Assembly (NCBI RefSeq): GCF_003470205.1
Contig: NZ_QWKP01000214.1
Span: 1 to 64,000, forward strand
Direction of reading: 5' to 3'
DNA length: 64,000 nucleotides
Source: Cellulomonas rhizosphaerae
GTDB taxonomy: Bacteria; Actinomycetota; Actinomycetes; Actinomycetales; Cellulomonadaceae
In this document: positions 17,031-43,040 of the stretch, piece by piece
How positions within the stretch are numbered: position 1 is the first letter of the stretch
How the letters are laid out: every line of letters starts with the position of its first letter
The notes under the pieces: model-generated
What the model saw: only the letters and a program-made list of their open reading frames with translations
Told to the model about the DNA's origin: nothing
Database searches by the model: none
Made by a program: the position numbers and the translations under genes

Positions 17031-17089
17031 CCCCGGCGGCCCGGTCCCCCCGCCCAGCCCGGCTACCGCAACCCCCGAGATCTCTCCGC

Positions 17090-17145
17090 CGAGCAGGTGA
17101 TTACGCACGCTTCGCGGGCTGGAAGCGTGCACAACCACCTGCTCG
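17090..17145. repeat. REP-like hairpin A flanking the AbiEi/DUF559 gene
   Basis: An imperfect inverted repeat of two 24-nt arms (17090-17113 and 17122-17145; 21 of 24 positions match) with an 8-nt loop. Both arms read, in one orientation, CGAGCAGGTG.TT..GCACGCTTC. The same 24-nt motif recurs twice more as hairpin B at 18163-18218. It lies 37 bp before the start of the enclosed gene. Confidence 0.85.
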
Positions 17146-17181
17146 ACGGCCGTGGGCAGTCGGGGTTGGGGATGACCGGGG

Positions 17182-18207
17182 ATGCGGCGGCGTCAGGTGC
17201 GGTGGAGTGGGGGCGTGTCTCGGGGAATCGTCGTGCCGGTCGGGCTGCTTGCCGTGGCCGTGCGGCAGGCGGGGCTCGTGTCCTCGGAGCAGTGCGCCGC
17301 CCACGGCGTGGCCCGTGGTGCCCGGACGCGGCTGGTCTCGGCGCGCAGGTGGAGCCAGCCGACGCGGGGAGTCTTCGACACCGTGGTCTCCCCGCCGCAC
17401 GAGCGGCACCCGGACGAGCGCCGCCGCCGGGCCGCGTGGCTCGGAATGTTGGCCTACGGGCCGAGTGCGATCGCCGTCGGCGCGTGCGCCTTGGCGCTCC
17501 ATGGTGTCGCCGGTCTGCCAATCGTCGTCCAGCCGGAGGTCACGCTGGCCGATGGATCGCGCCTGCGATCCCGAGATGGCATCCGGCTCCGGCAGTTCGC
17601 GGGGGTGACGACGGTGGTCGTGGACGGCCGTCGAATCGCGTCGGTCGAGGCGGCGCTGATCCAGGCGTTGCCGGCGTTGGCGCGCACGCACGCGGTCGCG
17701 ATCCTCGACAGCGCGCTCAACAAGCGGCTCCTGGACCTGGAGGGGATGGCGCGCGTCAAGGCGGGGGTCCGCGGGCGACGAGGCGCGGCACGGCTGGAAC
17801 CGTGGTGGAGGCTGGTCGACGGGCGTTCGGAGTCACCACTGGAGACGGACGCACGCCTGCGATGCCTCGACGCGGGCATCGCGCCCGACGACCTGCAGGT
17901 GGTCATTCGTGACGACGGCGGACGGTTCGTCGGGCGGGGCGATCTCGGTTGGCGGCTGCGCGACGGGCGATGGCTGCTCGTCGAGATCGACGGTCGCGAG
18001 GTCCACGACACCCCACAGGCGTTGTACTCCGACCGCACCCGCCAGAACCGCCTCCTCCTTACCGGCCGCGTCGACCTGCTCCGCTTCATCCGCGCCGACT
18101 TCCCCCACCACCTCGTCGCGACGATCCGCCAACACCTCGCGCTCGACGCCGCGAACTCCCGCCGACCAGGCCGTGATGCACGCTTCGATGCCCGGATGCG
18201 TGCGTAA
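17182..18207 (+). CDS. AbiEi-like winged-helix plus DUF559/Vsr-like nuclease-fold protein
   Basis: A 341-residue protein. Residues about 25-75 (LAVAVRQAGLVSSEQCAAHG to TRGVFDTV) look like the winged helix of AbiEi-type antitoxins. Residues about 215-310 resemble the DUF559/Vsr PD-(D/E)XK fold: Glu in SPLETDAR (~219), Asp in VGRGDLGWR (~253) and Glu in LVEIDGREVHD (~267) could form the metal site, and the chain ends with DRTRQNRLLLTGRVDLLRF. No AbiEii-type toxin gene is adjacent, so it is an orphan. It is bracketed by two matching hairpins, the downstream one overlapping its last 15 codons. Nuclease activity is inferred, not shown. Confidence 0.8.
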   Translation: MRRRQVRWSGGVSRGIVVPVGLLAVAVRQAGLVSSEQCAAHGVARGARTRLVSARRWSQPTRGVFDTVVSPPHERHPDERRRRAAWLGMLAYGPSAIAVGACALALHGVAGLPIVVQPEVTLADGSRLRSRDGIRLRQFAGVTTVVVDGRRIASVEAALIQALPALARTHAVAILDSALNKRLLDLEGMARVKAGVRGRRGAARLEPWWRLVDGRSESPLETDARLRCLDAGIAPDDLQVVIRDDGGRFVGRGDLGWRLRDGRWLLVEIDGREVHDTPQALYSDRTRQNRLLLTGRVDLLRFIRADFPHHLVATIRQHLALDAANSRRPGRDARFDARMRA

Positions 18208-18218
18208 CGACCTGCTCG
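18163..18218. repeat. REP-like hairpin B flanking the AbiEi/DUF559 gene
   Basis: An imperfect inverted repeat of 24-nt arms (18163-18186 and 18195-18218; 19 of 24 match) with an 8-nt loop. The right arm, read on the minus strand, is CGAGCAGGTCGTTACGCACG followed by CATC and matches the left arm of hairpin A at 21 of 24 positions. It overlaps the 3' end of the enclosed coding sequence. Confidence 0.85.
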
Positions 18219-18272
18219 ACCGGCCGGTCGCCAGGAGGGTGGGTGGGGTATCGGGCGTGATAGGACGTACGG

Positions 18273-31444: not shown

Positions 31445-32050
31445 TCAGGCGGGGACGAGCACGGGTGCGCCGACGGCGCGGAGCACGAACGCCTCGGTCT
31501 GGGCGATCGCGCGCTCGCGGGCGGGGCCGTCGTCGGGCACGCCGCGACCGGACAGGCACGCGTTGACCAGCGGGACCGTGGTGTCGAGGTCCTGCTCGGG
31601 GAAGGCGCCCGACGCGATGCCGGCCGCGAGGATCTCGCGCAGCACCTGCTCGACCACGACGACGTGCTCGCGGACGCGCTGCTGCGTGGAGCGGGACAGC
31701 ACCGAGCGCAGCTCCGGGCCGGGGGCCACGTGGTAGACGCGCTTGAGTTGCGTCTGCTGGCGGACGTAGGTGCGCAGCTGCTCGACGGGGTCGTCGATGT
31801 CGTCCAGCGCGCGCTGCAGCGTCGCGGCGTACTGGTCGGTCTCGTGAGTGATGAAGCCGACGAGGAGCGCTTCCTTGTCCGGGAAGTGGTTGTAGACCGC
31901 CGTGCGGCCGACGCCGGCCGCCTGCGCGATCTCGGCGAGGGTGATGGCGTCGAAGCCCTGCTCGGCCATGAGGGTCGACAGCGCCGCGAAGAGCTTCTGG
32001 CGGGTCTGCTCACGGTGCTCGTGCAGCGATCCGCCGATGATCTTGGGCAT
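31445..32050 (-). CDS. TetR-family transcriptional regulator
   Basis: A 201-residue regulator from ATG 32050 (MPKIIGGSLHEHREQTRQKL). The helix-turn-helix is TLAEIAQAAGVGRTAVYNHF near residues 35-54, followed by PDKEALLVGFI. The C-terminal ligand-binding region is all-helical. An upstream extension in frame lacks support. It precedes the methyltransferase gene and faces the divergent GAF regulator 157 bp away. Its target is not evident. Confidence 0.9.
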   Translation of the reverse strand: MPKIIGGSLHEHREQTRQKLFAALSTLMAEQGFDAITLAEIAQAAGVGRTAVYNHFPDKEALLVGFITHETDQYAATLQRALDDIDDPVEQLRTYVRQQTQLKRVYHVAPGPELRSVLSRSTQQRVREHVVVVEQVLREILAAGIASGAFPEQDLDTTVPLVNACLSGRGVPDDGPARERAIAQTEAFVLRAVGAPVLVPA

Positions 32051-32206
32051 GGTGACATCGTCGCACGCCGCGTCAGAAAAACCCACCAGACCGGGGGTGA
32101 TCCGCGTGACCCACACCGACCCTTCACGTGCCCTCGCCCTGCCGGAACTGGACACGCGTCCCTACACTCGAGGTGGTCCCGACGACGACGTCGGCCAGGA
32201 GGTGCG

Positions 32207-33448
32207 ATGAGCGCAACCACCGTGAGTGCGGCGCACGACGAGTTCGTGACGACCGGGCACGCGCCCGGCCGGTCCGTGCGCCGCGTGGTGGCCGACTCCT
32301 GGCGCCGCAGCCGCCGCAGCGGCGTCGATCCCGAGCAGTCCTCGCCGCCGGTCGACGTCAGCGCGAACGACCTGGCCGGCCTGCGCCGCGAGCACCCGCT
32401 CTCGGTCGCGCTGCCGATCGTGCGCCAGCTCCTGCTCGACCGCGACCCCGGCTGGGTCGCGGCGCTCACCGACCAGACCGGCCGGCTGCTGTGGGTCGAG
32501 GGCGACGCGCGCGTGCGCCGGCAGGTCGAGGTCGCCGGCTTCGTCGCGGGAGCGGTGTGGCGCGAGGACTGCGCGGGCACCAACGCGCCCGGCACGGCGC
32601 TGGCCACCAACCGCGAGGTGCAGGTCATCGGCACCGAGCACTGGGCGCGGCCGGTCCAGCCGTGGAACTGCGCGGCGGTCCCAGTGCACGACTCCGCCGG
32701 CCAGGTGCTGGGCGTTCTCGACGTGACCGGCGGCTCCGTGGTCGCGTCCGGGCTCGCGATGCAGCTGGTCCGCGCGACCGCGGCCGCCATCGAGGCGACG
32801 ATCGCGTCGCGGCCCACCGGCGGCACCTCGGCCGTCCCCGTCGGGCCGCCCGTCCCGTCGCTGCACGTGCTCGGCGGCCAGGTCGGGACGCTCGGGCTCG
32901 ACGCCGCCGCGCACCGCCTGGGCGGCCGGCACGCCGAGATCCTGCTGCTGCTGGCCGAGCACCCCGCGGGCCTGTCCGGAGACCAGCTCGCGGTCCTGCT
33001 CTCCGACGCGGAGCTGTCCGACGTAACGGTCCGGGCGGAGGTGTCCCGCCTACGCCGGCTCGTCGGGCCGCTGCTCAGCGAGTCGCGGCCCTACCGGCTG
33101 ACACGCGCGGTTCGCACGGACGTCGACGTCGTGCGCGACGCCCTGGCCGTGGGCGACACCACCCAGGCGCTGTCCGCGTACACCGGGCCCGTGCTGCCGC
33201 GGTCGGTCGCCCCTGGGGTCGAGAAGCTGCGGACGCGGCTGGCCGACGAGCTCCGCGCCGCGGTGCTCGCGTCGCGCGACCCGCAGCTGCTCGCGCGGTG
33301 GGCGGCGTCCGACGAGGGCGCCGACGACTGGGCCGCGTGGGCCGCCCTCGCCTCGTCGAGCGTGCCCGGCTCGGCGCACCACCTGCGCGCGCACGCCCAG
33401 CTCGTCCGCCTCGAGCGCGAGATCGGTCGGCGTCACCCGGTCGGGTGA
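32207..33448 (+). CDS. GAF-domain transcriptional regulator of the aldehyde dehydrogenase locus
   Basis: A 413-residue protein from ATG 32207 with CAGGAGG upstream. Residues about 20-205 match the N-terminus of AcoR-type regulators: [20 protein letters not shown], then a GAF region with [19 protein letters not shown] and [18 protein letters not shown]. In place of the AAA+ domain, the C-terminal part is a winged-helix-like segment ([35 protein letters not shown]), as usual for actinobacterial versions, which work with sigma-70 polymerase. It probably senses an aldehyde or alcohol and activates the ALDH gene downstream. Confidence 0.85.
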
Positions 33449-33498
33449 ACTTGCCCCGTCGAACTGCGATGATCACGGGCCGCGCGCACGCTGGACGG

Positions 33499-33687
33499 AT
33501 GACCGAGTCACACGTCCACCTCACCGACGACGACGTCCGCGCAGCACGGCGGGCGTGGTTGGCGGCCCACGAGGAGGATCCCGACTCGGGTCGGACGGCG
33601 CGGCTGCACGACGGGTACCGCCGCGTGGTCAACGCCCAGGCGCAGCAGATCGCGGACGACTTCCGGGCGCGGCGGGCCGAGCGCTAA
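33499..33687 (+). CDS. small hypothetical protein between regulator and ALDH
   Basis: A 62-residue protein, [20 protein letters not shown] onward, charged and helical, ending in [14 protein letters not shown] 33499 has a CACGCT -10-like element upstream; an earlier in-frame ATG at 33469 is possible. The composition suggests a small DNA-binding-like or coiled helical protein, but no domain is recognised. It lies between the GAF regulator and the aldehyde dehydrogenase genes. Confidence 0.65.
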
Positions 33688-33692
33688 GGCGG

Positions 33693-33727
33693 GTGCAACG
33701 GTCGTGCAACGTGCCGCGGCCTACCGT
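33693..33727 (+). promoter_or_regulatory. direct-repeat activator site and -10 box upstream of aldehyde dehydrogenase
   Basis: GTGCAACG occurs at 33693-33700 and again at 33704-33711, 11 bp apart (one helical turn), ending 10 bp before a TACCGT -10 box (33722-33727). The repeats cover the -35 position, as expected for an activator site. The adjacent GAF regulator is the natural candidate. A CCGGACG/CGTCCGG hairpin (33758-33777) lies in the leader. Confidence 0.5.
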
Positions 33728-33797
33728 GCGGGAGGATCGCGGCAAGGGTGCCGCGCCCCGGACGCCTCGTCGTCCGGATGACCTGCCAGGAGGCGCG

Positions 33798-35321
<1,524 letters not shown>

Positions 35322-35347
35322 CCGAGCCGAGCACGAACCAGCCCGAT

Positions 35348-35427
35348 CTAGCCGCACTTGTGACGGAAGTGCGCCCCTGAGGCTCCGTGGGGCCTCAGGG
35401 GACGACACCCGTCACAAGTGCGGCTAG
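35348..35427. repeat. 80-nt nested inverted repeat within the ALDH-DUF779 operon
   Basis: The outer arms CTAGCCGCACTTGTGACGG (35348-35366) and its exact complement (35409-35427) form a perfect 19-bp stem. Inside, CCCCTGAGGC (35374-35383) pairs perfectly with 35392-35401. The left shoulder also has GCACTT...AAGTGC. The structure fills the gap between the ALDH stop and the DUF779 start. It could be an attenuator, an mRNA-processing element or a small mobile palindrome. Confidence 0.85.
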
Positions 35428-35449
35428 GTGGGGCCAGGAAGGGAGCGCG

Positions 35450-35839
35450 ATGGGACTGCCCGAGCGGGTCGCGGTGACCGACGAGGCCGCCACGATGCTG
35501 CGCCGGCTGCGCGAGCAGCACGGCGAGCTGATGTTCCACCAGTCCGGCGGCTGCTGCGACGGCTCGTCGCCGATGTGCTTCCCGCAGGGGGAGTTCTTCA
35601 CGGGCGACGTCGACGAGCACCTCGGCGACCTGGACCTCGGCGACGGGGTGGTCGTGCCCGTGTGGATGACCAAGGCGCAGTACGAGTACTGGAAGCACAC
35701 GCACCTGACGATCGACGTCGTCAAGGGCCGCGGCGCGGGCTTCTCCCTCGAAGCCCCCGAGGGCGTGCGGTTCCTCATCCGCTCGCGCCTGCTGACCGAC
35801 GACGAGTACGGCGAGCTGCACACCGCGGGGGTCGTGTAG
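35450..35839 (+). CDS. DUF779 protein, aldehyde dehydrogenase companion
   Basis: A 129-residue protein with the DUF779 signature FHQSGGCCDGSSPMCFPQGEF and later MTKAQYEYWKHTHLTIDVV. The Cys pair plus third Cys could bind metal. DUF779 genes occur next to ExaC-type aldehyde dehydrogenases in many bacteria, and the protein may mature or support that enzyme; the mechanism is not established. The ATG has GGAAGGGAG upstream. It lies 128 bp after the ALDH gene, across the nested hairpin. Confidence 0.92.
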   Translation: MGLPERVAVTDEAATMLRRLREQHGELMFHQSGGCCDGSSPMCFPQGEFFTGDVDEHLGDLDLGDGVVVPVWMTKAQYEYWKHTHLTIDVVKGRGAGFSLEAPEGVRFLIRSRLLTDDEYGELHTAGVV

Positions 35840-35845
35840 CCGAGA

Positions 35846-35851
35846 TACCGT
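35846..35851 (+). promoter_or_regulatory. -10 box TACCGT, leaderless start
   Basis: TACCGT is 6 nt before ATG 35858, implying its own leaderless transcript for the DinB gene despite the short distance to DUF779. Confidence 0.6.
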
Positions 35852-35857
35852 GCGGGG

Positions 35858-36397
35858 ATGACGACGCCGGCCGCCGCCCCCGCCATCGAGCCCGACGAGA
35901 AGGACTGGACCTGGGTCCTGCGCGAGCGCTGCCCGGAGTGCGGCTTCACCGCGGCCGACGCCGACACCACGGCCATCGGCGGCACGGTCCGCGATCTCGC
36001 GCCCCGCTGGGTCTCGGCCCTGCACCGCACCGACGCGCGCGAGCGCCCCGAGCCCACCACCTGGTCGACGCTCGAGTACGGCGCGCACGTCCGCGACGTG
36101 TTCCGGGTCTTCGACGGCCGCCTCGCGCTCATGCTCGCCGAGGACGACCCGCTGTTCGAGAACTGGGACCAGGACGCCACCGCGCTCGCGGACCGCTACG
36201 ACCTGCAGGACCCGACGGTCGTGGCCGACGAGCTCGCGGACGCGGCCGATGCGATCGCGGACCGGTTCGACTCCGTGGCCGACGACGCCTGGGAGCGCAC
36301 GGGCCGCCGCTCGAACGGGTCGGAGTTCACGGTGACCACGCTCGGCCAGTACTTCCTGCACGACGTGGTCCACCACCTGCACGACGTGCACGCCTGA
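35858..36397 (+). CDS. DinB-like four-helix metal-binding protein
   Basis: A 179-residue protein. The N-terminal Cys pair RCPECGF is followed by a DinB-type four-helix bundle with candidate metal-ligand His residues in YGAHVRDVFRVF and HDVVHHLHDVHA. In actinobacteria this family includes mycothiol-dependent transferases and isomerases. Here the Cys pair near residues 26-29 is an additional feature common to a subgroup annotated simply as DinB family. The leaderless -10 marks it as a separate unit. Confidence 0.82.
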   Translation: MTTPAAAPAIEPDEKDWTWVLRERCPECGFTAADADTTAIGGTVRDLAPRWVSALHRTDARERPEPTTWSTLEYGAHVRDVFRVFDGRLALMLAEDDPLFENWDQDATALADRYDLQDPTVVADELADAADAIADRFDSVADDAWERTGRRSNGSEFTVTTLGQYFLHDVVHHLHDVHA

Positions 36398-42991: not shown

Positions 42992-43040
42992 GTTGTGTTC
43001 AGCGTTGATGCCGCTCTGTGCAATCAACGCTGAACACAAC
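42992..43040. terminator. perfect 18-bp hairpin terminator
   Basis: GTTGTGTTCAGCGTTGAT (42992-43009) and ATCAACGCTGAACACAAC (43023-43040) are exact complements with a 13-nt loop. It begins 2 bp downstream of the decarboxylase stop and precedes the GH15 gene on the same strand. It is AT-richer than its surroundings and lacks a T-tract. Confidence 0.75.

Follow-up and report, generated by a model that had tools for sequence, protein, structure and literature searches.

In the 64,000-nucleotide stretch of Cellulomonas rhizosphaerae DNA analysed here (hereafter the window), an acetaldehyde dehydrogenase gene, exaC, is followed on the same strand by a gene for a DUF779 protein, and a long palindrome lies in the gap between them. 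The features of the locus are the following:

32207 to 33448, + strand: GAF-domain regulator with a DhaR-like N-terminal part, upstream of exaC (start taken from the gene caller)
33798 to 35321, + strand: exaC, acetaldehyde dehydrogenase (NF050026, 956 bits, cut-off 900; PF00171)
35341 to 35434, no strand assigned: whole dispersed palindromic element, 94 nt (inverted repeat and family model R1)
35348 to 35366, + strand: 5' arm of the perfect 19-bp outer stem, CTAGCCGCACTTGTGACGG (sequence reading and RNA fold)
35374 to 35383, + strand: 5' arm of the 10-bp inner stem, CCCCTGAGGC (sequence reading and RNA fold)
35392 to 35401, + strand: 3' arm of the 10-bp inner stem, GCCTCAGGGG (sequence reading and RNA fold)
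35409 to 35427, + strand: 3' arm of the perfect 19-bp outer stem, CCGTCACAAGTGCGGCTAG (sequence reading and RNA fold)
35436 to 35445, + strand: purine-rich ribosome-binding site of the DUF779 gene, right after the hairpin (by eye)
35450 to 35839, + strand: DUF779 gene (PF05610, 2.8e-45)

The reading of the two genes as an aldehyde dehydrogenase and DUF779, already made in the first-pass annotation, is borne out by the NF050026 score over the cut-off and by the PF05610 match. For the regulator, the GAF match (PF01590) was obtained on the longer open reading frame 31664-33448, and the similarity to DhaR (NF008485) is weak and under the cut-off (66.5 bits; cut-off 551). Only 15 nt separate the end of the element from the ATG of DUF779, so that a promoter between the two is unlikely, and no sigma-70-like promoter was recognised in 33400-36000. 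Taken together, this spacing and the lack of a recognised promoter suggest that DUF779 is probably transcribed by read-through from exaC.

The perfect 19-bp outer stem enclosing a perfect 10-bp inner stem at 35348-35427, as first annotated, is read directly from the sequence: 35348-35366 pairs with 35409-35427 at 19 of 19 positions, and 35374-35383 with 35392-35401 at 10 of 10. Imperfect arms reach out to 35341-35434 (46-nt arms, 83% complementary), the longest of the 47 inverted-repeat pairs found in the window at the settings used. The predicted RNA fold of 35321-35460 has an energy of -92.7 kcal/mol (z -9.0), a stability equalled by 0 of 200 shuffles, and when the 115 nt past each called stop were folded, exaC came first of 60 in the window with a z of -12.8, the next being -6.95. 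A search of the region against Rfam 15 returned three matches at E<=1, all far under the gathering score. No T-run, the U-tract of an intrinsic terminator, is present 3' of 35434, which makes efficient intrinsic termination less likely, and a scan of 33400-36000 recognised no U-tailed terminator at the hairpin, its sole terminator-like site being another one at 35295-35311.

As the first annotation had proposed to check for mobility by a sequence search, dispersed copies were looked for and found, both in the same genome and in relatives. The nucleotide search recovered diverged copies elsewhere in the window's own genome (G000) and gave matches with 7 of the 60 genomes of the genus, G000 counted among them; one of these seven, G039, has a 26-nt match only and none with the covariance model, probably a chance match. 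The covariance model was built from 21 copies of G000 and Cellulomonas sp. PhB150 (G031), towards which it leans, and was run on 12 chosen genomes; in each of them scoring covered the 150 best first-look candidates, and each site gives two matches, one per strand. The window copy, itself among the 21, matches model positions 1-94 with an E of 2.5e-19. Among these best 150 candidates per genome, 16 matches were obtained in G000, 46 in PhB150, 38 in Cellulomonas sp. HZM (G023), 20 in G002, 22 in G024 and 16 in G040, corresponding to about 8 sites in G000 and 23 in PhB150, and 0 in G039, G051, G020, G010, G025 and G008; the family was thus recovered in 6 of the 12 genomes. The number in G000 may be an underestimate, since this is a draft genome of 223 contigs and palindromes break assemblies. 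A conserved core, GCACTTGTGAC, is present in both arms, and the core span is 66-70 nt in 72 of 75 copies and 78 nt in three copies of G040. The exact core pattern was found in 17 stretches of an 84,980-species collection, which possibly does not hold the window's own genome, 10 of them in HZM and 7 in PhB150. The element belongs to an old family of intergenic palindromes dispersed in Cellulomonas, recovered from six genomes so far. In the open-licence literature we encountered no description of this palindrome family or of a hairpin at the exaC-DUF779 site and found no paper on REPIN with RAYT in Actinobacteria, and Cellulomonas is unmentioned in the main text of the RepRanger paper (PMC12306157).

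The orientation of the neighbouring genes, taken from our own gene caller, covers 77 copies of the about 79 sites implied by the model: 47 lie between co-directional, 14 between convergent and 13 between divergent genes, one lies within a called ORF and two are unassigned. In some of the 74 copies found between called genes, as much as 40 nt overlaps the end of such a gene. These orientations are not significantly different from those of the window gene pairs (42 co-directional, 9 convergent and 8 divergent), convergent pairs being commoner among the copies when the comparison is made with gaps of at least 60 nt (14/74 vs 3/64, p 0.017). Since the orientations are close to those of all window gene pairs, the family taken together is not one of terminators, and a terminator-only reading was rejected on the 13 copies between divergent genes. 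At the exaC-DUF779 site itself, partial attenuation may be compatible with the missing U-tract. A partial terminator or attenuator, at which some polymerases would stop at the hairpin and DUF779 expression would be lowered, possibly alongside a protective role, is in agreement with the position of the hairpin past the exaC stop and with the accessible part of PMC8355165, where most terminator-like hairpins of M. tuberculosis, and some in Streptomyces, are described without a plain U trail. Our hairpin resembles these U-less structures in being G+C-rich and close behind a stop codon; it differs from them by the next start codon lying 15 nt away and by the family copies between divergent genes. 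With these copies and the stem lacking a following T-run both counting against it, we consider attenuation possible, on the unlikely side.

An extra GCACTT/AAGTGC pairing had been read as allowing cruciform or branched forms. In the window copy GCACTT (35354-35359) is indeed able to pair with AAGTGC (35367-35372); across the family the branched form went unsupported, as the observed CACT/AGTG arm-internal pairing of the 150 family arms was reached by 978 of 2000 shuffles. All four CACT/AGTG pairs are present in 32 of the 150 arms, and per genome a weak lean is seen in G000 (118/2000 shuffles) and G031 (199/2000). The arm-internal (clover or branched) fold was rejected, as covariation gives it no support overall across these arms.

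Coordination between the two arms was assessed on 75 copies, leaving out L101 (inside an ORF) and L109 (a duplicate of L108). In the outer 12 nt, the own arms of a copy match better than shuffled ones (6/2000 shuffles reach the observed value); by genome, the value is reached by 0, 12 and 60 of 2000 shuffles in G031, G000 and G002, no own-arm advantage appears in G024 (268/2000) or G023 (1446/2000), and in G040 the arms match each other worse than chance (2000/2000). The inner 9 nt show no arm-arm coordination overall (1921/2000). A uniform arm-arm covariation was rejected, since it holds in three genomes, fails in two and is reversed in one. The two copies L108 and L109 of HZM (contig C14) are the same palindrome in two opposite orientations, both on one contig and beside like neighbouring genes, either a duplication or an assembly artefact. 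The perfection of the arms, from which selection or recent insertion had been argued, is true of the window copy; it does not extend to the family, many copies of which carry recurrent arm mismatches, the arms of G040 falling below chance.

Arm sequences at orthologous sites vary between lineages (e.g., CTAGCCGCAC, ATCCCGCCGC, CAGCGGCAC), with pairing largely kept. Among the 414 cells given by 18 orthologous pairs and 23 arm columns, 279 are unchanged, 79 carry one-sided changes, 38 are double changes paired in both and 18 are double changes with a broken pair, these being raw counts without a shuffled control in which several pairs share a site. Such a pattern would fit pairing selection, arm correction or family-wide homogenisation alike. 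Lineage-specific arms at shared sites are also what would be expected with a co-evolving binding protein and, together with the conserved core in both arms and the 13 of 77 copies between divergent genes, they would speak for a DNA-level element (a protein-binding or nucleoid site, or a cruciform) acting in either orientation and beside any genes, alone or along with the other roles. This would leave unexplained the hairpins of other sequence found in the same slot of congeners, and we regard it as rather improbable.

The recent insertion put forward in the first-pass annotation is contradicted by the sites of the relatives. PhB150 carries the element at the same exaC-DUF779 site between the same genes, 96% identical, and HZM has a family member in this gap, of its own arm subtype and behind an additional hairpin of other sequence. 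The same three species also share a family copy in the nrdD-nrdG gap, recognisably similar in its centre and different in its arms. Judged from these shared sites, the element is old and stable in position at exaC-DUF779, not newly inserted. Among 18 further site pairs compared between PhB150 and G000 (a list that leaves out the exaC site, itself also shared), 6 are shared, 9 have no element in G000, one (L088) lies in a larger gap and two (L028 and L090) are unjudgeable, their alignments not spanning the site; the cleanest empty sites are L022, L026, L087 and L093, the other empty ones coming from messy alignments. The flanks of two other PhB150 copies, L025 and L091, have no match in G000. 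For L022 and L087, loss in G000 is the simplest reading, since in G002 both sites hold the element between the same two genes.

All 49 core matches with at most one mismatch in G000, PhB150 and HZM lie inside full palindromes, as checked by eye against the model matches, and no solo core was found outside palindromes in these three genomes; the reversed control pattern matched five times in HZM and 0 times in the other two, and more diverged ends would escape the search. Insertion-sequence ends as the source were rejected on this ground, no insertion sequence with such ends being seen. A Y1/RAYT transposase (PF01797) was found in 0 of the 12 genomes, the control finding it in 5 of 14 named genomes, E. 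coli included, and a RAYT association was rejected as well. MITEs are small inverted-repeat elements of nearly constant size and many copies. The family resembles them in each of these respects, and differs from them in that no insertion sequence with such ends was seen. At the filled and empty pairs of PhB150 and G000 no target duplication was clear by eye, in flanks that have diverged close to the element ends. A MITE-like palindrome of recent insertion would agree with this dispersal at nearly constant size and with the presence and absence differences between sister species; set against the site common to PhB150 and HZM, the probable losses at L022 and L087, the 49 cores inside full palindromes and the missing Y1 transposase, it appears very improbable.

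REP sequences are short, imperfect, intergenic palindromes, and REPINs carry them as inverted arms around a spacer that form one long hairpin and are non-coding (accessible part of PMC3116915). Like REP and REPIN, the family is dispersed, extragenic and palindromic, with no coding capacity. Unlike them, it has no RAYT/Y1 transposase in the 12 genomes searched and no single cores outside palindromes in three genomes, and its arms are not supported as small hairpins themselves. A palindrome family without a Y1 transposase raises the question of its spreading route.

The exaC-DUF779 gap was compared across the genus, where DUF779 was found in 32 of 60 genomes. In all of the 30 loci examined, an exaC-like C-terminus lies upstream and the gap folds into a hairpin, the best stem beginning 7 to 92 nt past the exaC stop. 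The gap stems form 15 sequence groups (blastn E 1e-2) or 21 (1e-4). High G+C makes hairpins common. Against dinucleotide shuffles (200 per exaC gap, 100 per control gap), the best stem was superior at p<=0.01 in 25 of 30 exaC gaps vs 3 of 20 other gaps between co-directional genes in the window (Fisher p 2e-6, related loci being treated as independent), L041, L043, L044, L045 and L053 missing this level, and at least one member reached it in 14 of the 15 or 18 of the 21 groups. This stem test came after a first z test over 90 nt, which cut off long hairpins and gave z<-3 at 16/30 exaC stops vs 5/63 control stops (medians of -3.03 and -0.72). Four hairpin pairs were selected by eye for comparison: L048/L049 show three double changes that are still Watson-Crick and three one-sided changes, L055/L057 one double change plus a one-sided one by which L057 loses a pair, L040/L042 one-sided changes only, and L183/L187 one double change turning a mismatch into a pair. 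Some gaps of about 43-51 nt contain little beyond the stop, the hairpin and the ribosome-binding site; being nearly filled in this way, they make read-through transcription likely. In L046 (G021) and L170 (G086) the DUF779 matches carry an in-frame stop (one TAG, one TGA), which could be an effect at the match end or decay.

In other genera of the order, the best-scoring 28 new loci from 79 matching genomes were considered, L167 and L169 being left out of the stem and z tests because the exaC C-terminus was unrecognised. Among the remaining 26 loci, which have a recognised exaC, 16 have room for a hairpin and 11 of these have a stem at p<=0.01; the other 10 gaps, of less than 40 nt, leave no space for such a hairpin, which is therefore inessential to the exaC-DUF779 pair. 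The slot is not unique either, since nrdD-nrdG gaps often have stems too: of 30 nrdG loci, 14 were dropped for an unrecognised nrdD end and one for want of an nrdG motif, and stems at p<=0.01 were obtained in 7 of the 15 remaining gaps, whose ends were set crudely. As congeners carry a hairpin in the same slot, often of different sequence, our comparison suggests that the shape and position of the hairpin matter more than its letters.

These data bear on the hypothesis of a selfish dispersed element without function at the slot, the hairpins of the congeners being coincidental or other selfish palindromes. At least three dispersed palindrome families exist in the window's genome, the copy orientations mirror those of all window gene pairs without a significant difference, and G000 has no element at 9 of the 18 compared sites filled in PhB150, all of which would be expected of such an element. 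The hairpins in 30 of 30 congener slots, in 15 to 21 sequence groups and with some compensatory changes, and the 96% identity of the exaC-DUF779 copy in PhB150 argue the other way, and we hold this hypothesis to be unlikely.

The origin of the other gap hairpins was followed by searching 18 of them against 20 same-genus genomes, and two have convincing further copies among the matches listed: that of G012 has five in its own genome, and that of G011, common to G006, has two in each of these two genomes. The examined copies of both repeats fold into hairpins, three of the five further G012 copies start at most 51 nt past a called stop, and neither repeat groups with the window's family by sequence. 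As judged by these sequence comparisons, three different dispersed palindrome families occupy the exaC-DUF779 slot in different lineages, from which we infer repeated recruitment. The unusually long gap of L041 (G002), about 334 nt, contains at least two palindromes, of which one has the arms ATCCCGCACGTCC; this one lies outside the listed model matches and shows a weak grouping with the family of the window, at E 1e-2 and not at 1e-4, so that it may be a diverged member. A bolder proposal, that a RAYT-less class of palindromes with arms changing together has been repeatedly domesticated as the exaC-DUF779 hairpin, can be put forward only tentatively and is on the unlikely side; if true, the co-changing arms would need either a process that corrects or homogenises arms or a binding factor co-evolving with them.

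We propose that the hairpin could act as an operon-internal mRNA structure which protects the exaC message, or marks a processing end, and makes the levels of ExaC and DUF779 differ, a proposal to which we give an even chance. In this model, exaC and DUF779 would be on one transcript, the hairpin past the exaC stop would block 3'-to-5' decay or mark the end left by processing, and the exaC part of the mRNA would outlive the DUF779 part, leading to unequal amounts of the two proteins. Dispersed palindromes would be ready-made sources of hairpins, repeatedly recruited into the slot. In E. coli operons, a strong structure after the upstream stop protects the upstream message, as described for malEFG in PMC5927463, which also names puf in a reference title. 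The malE-malF REP is an operon-internal hairpin of this kind. Our site resembles these operon-internal protective hairpins in having a stem-loop past the upstream stop, between two co-directional genes that are probably in one operon; it differs from them in that the hairpin sequence varies widely among congeners while the position is kept. A point against protection is given by the 13 of 77 family copies between divergent genes, where a 3'-protective role cannot apply. The regulatory or processing role suggested in the first-pass annotation thus gains indirect support, from the hairpins of the 30 congeners in 15 to 21 sequence groups and from some paired double changes seen in close relatives. 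The alternative drawn there between a regulatory element and an inserted palindrome was a false one, the hairpin being a copy of a repeat and quite possibly functional too.

A position kept while the sequence differs, sometimes through an unrelated repeat, offers a natural experiment that parts structure from sequence in operons. It makes testable the idea that post-transcriptional control in high-G+C bacteria draws on dispersed palindromes as raw material, and the need of a fixed ratio of DUF779, a little-studied partner, to acetaldehyde dehydrogenase.

Some minor observations were made on these repeats. Two copies of the window's family flank one gene in PhB150 (L021 and L147; contig C5), in HZM and in G024 (L113, L126 and L134), the gene beside the flanked one being presumably, as judged by eye, MetRS-like. 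In G000, where about 1.3 kb less separates the matching flanks, the flanked gene seems to be absent together with both copies. A second family of dispersed palindromes, with the arm CCGCCGAGCAGGTG..CACGCTTC, is present in the window at 17086-17149 and 18159-18223 and elsewhere in G000 and PhB150. A third one (GTTGTGTTCAGCGTTGAT / ATCAACGCTGAACACAAC) is found in the window at 42992-43040, with several copies in G000 and PhB150, some of them in neighbouring pairs.
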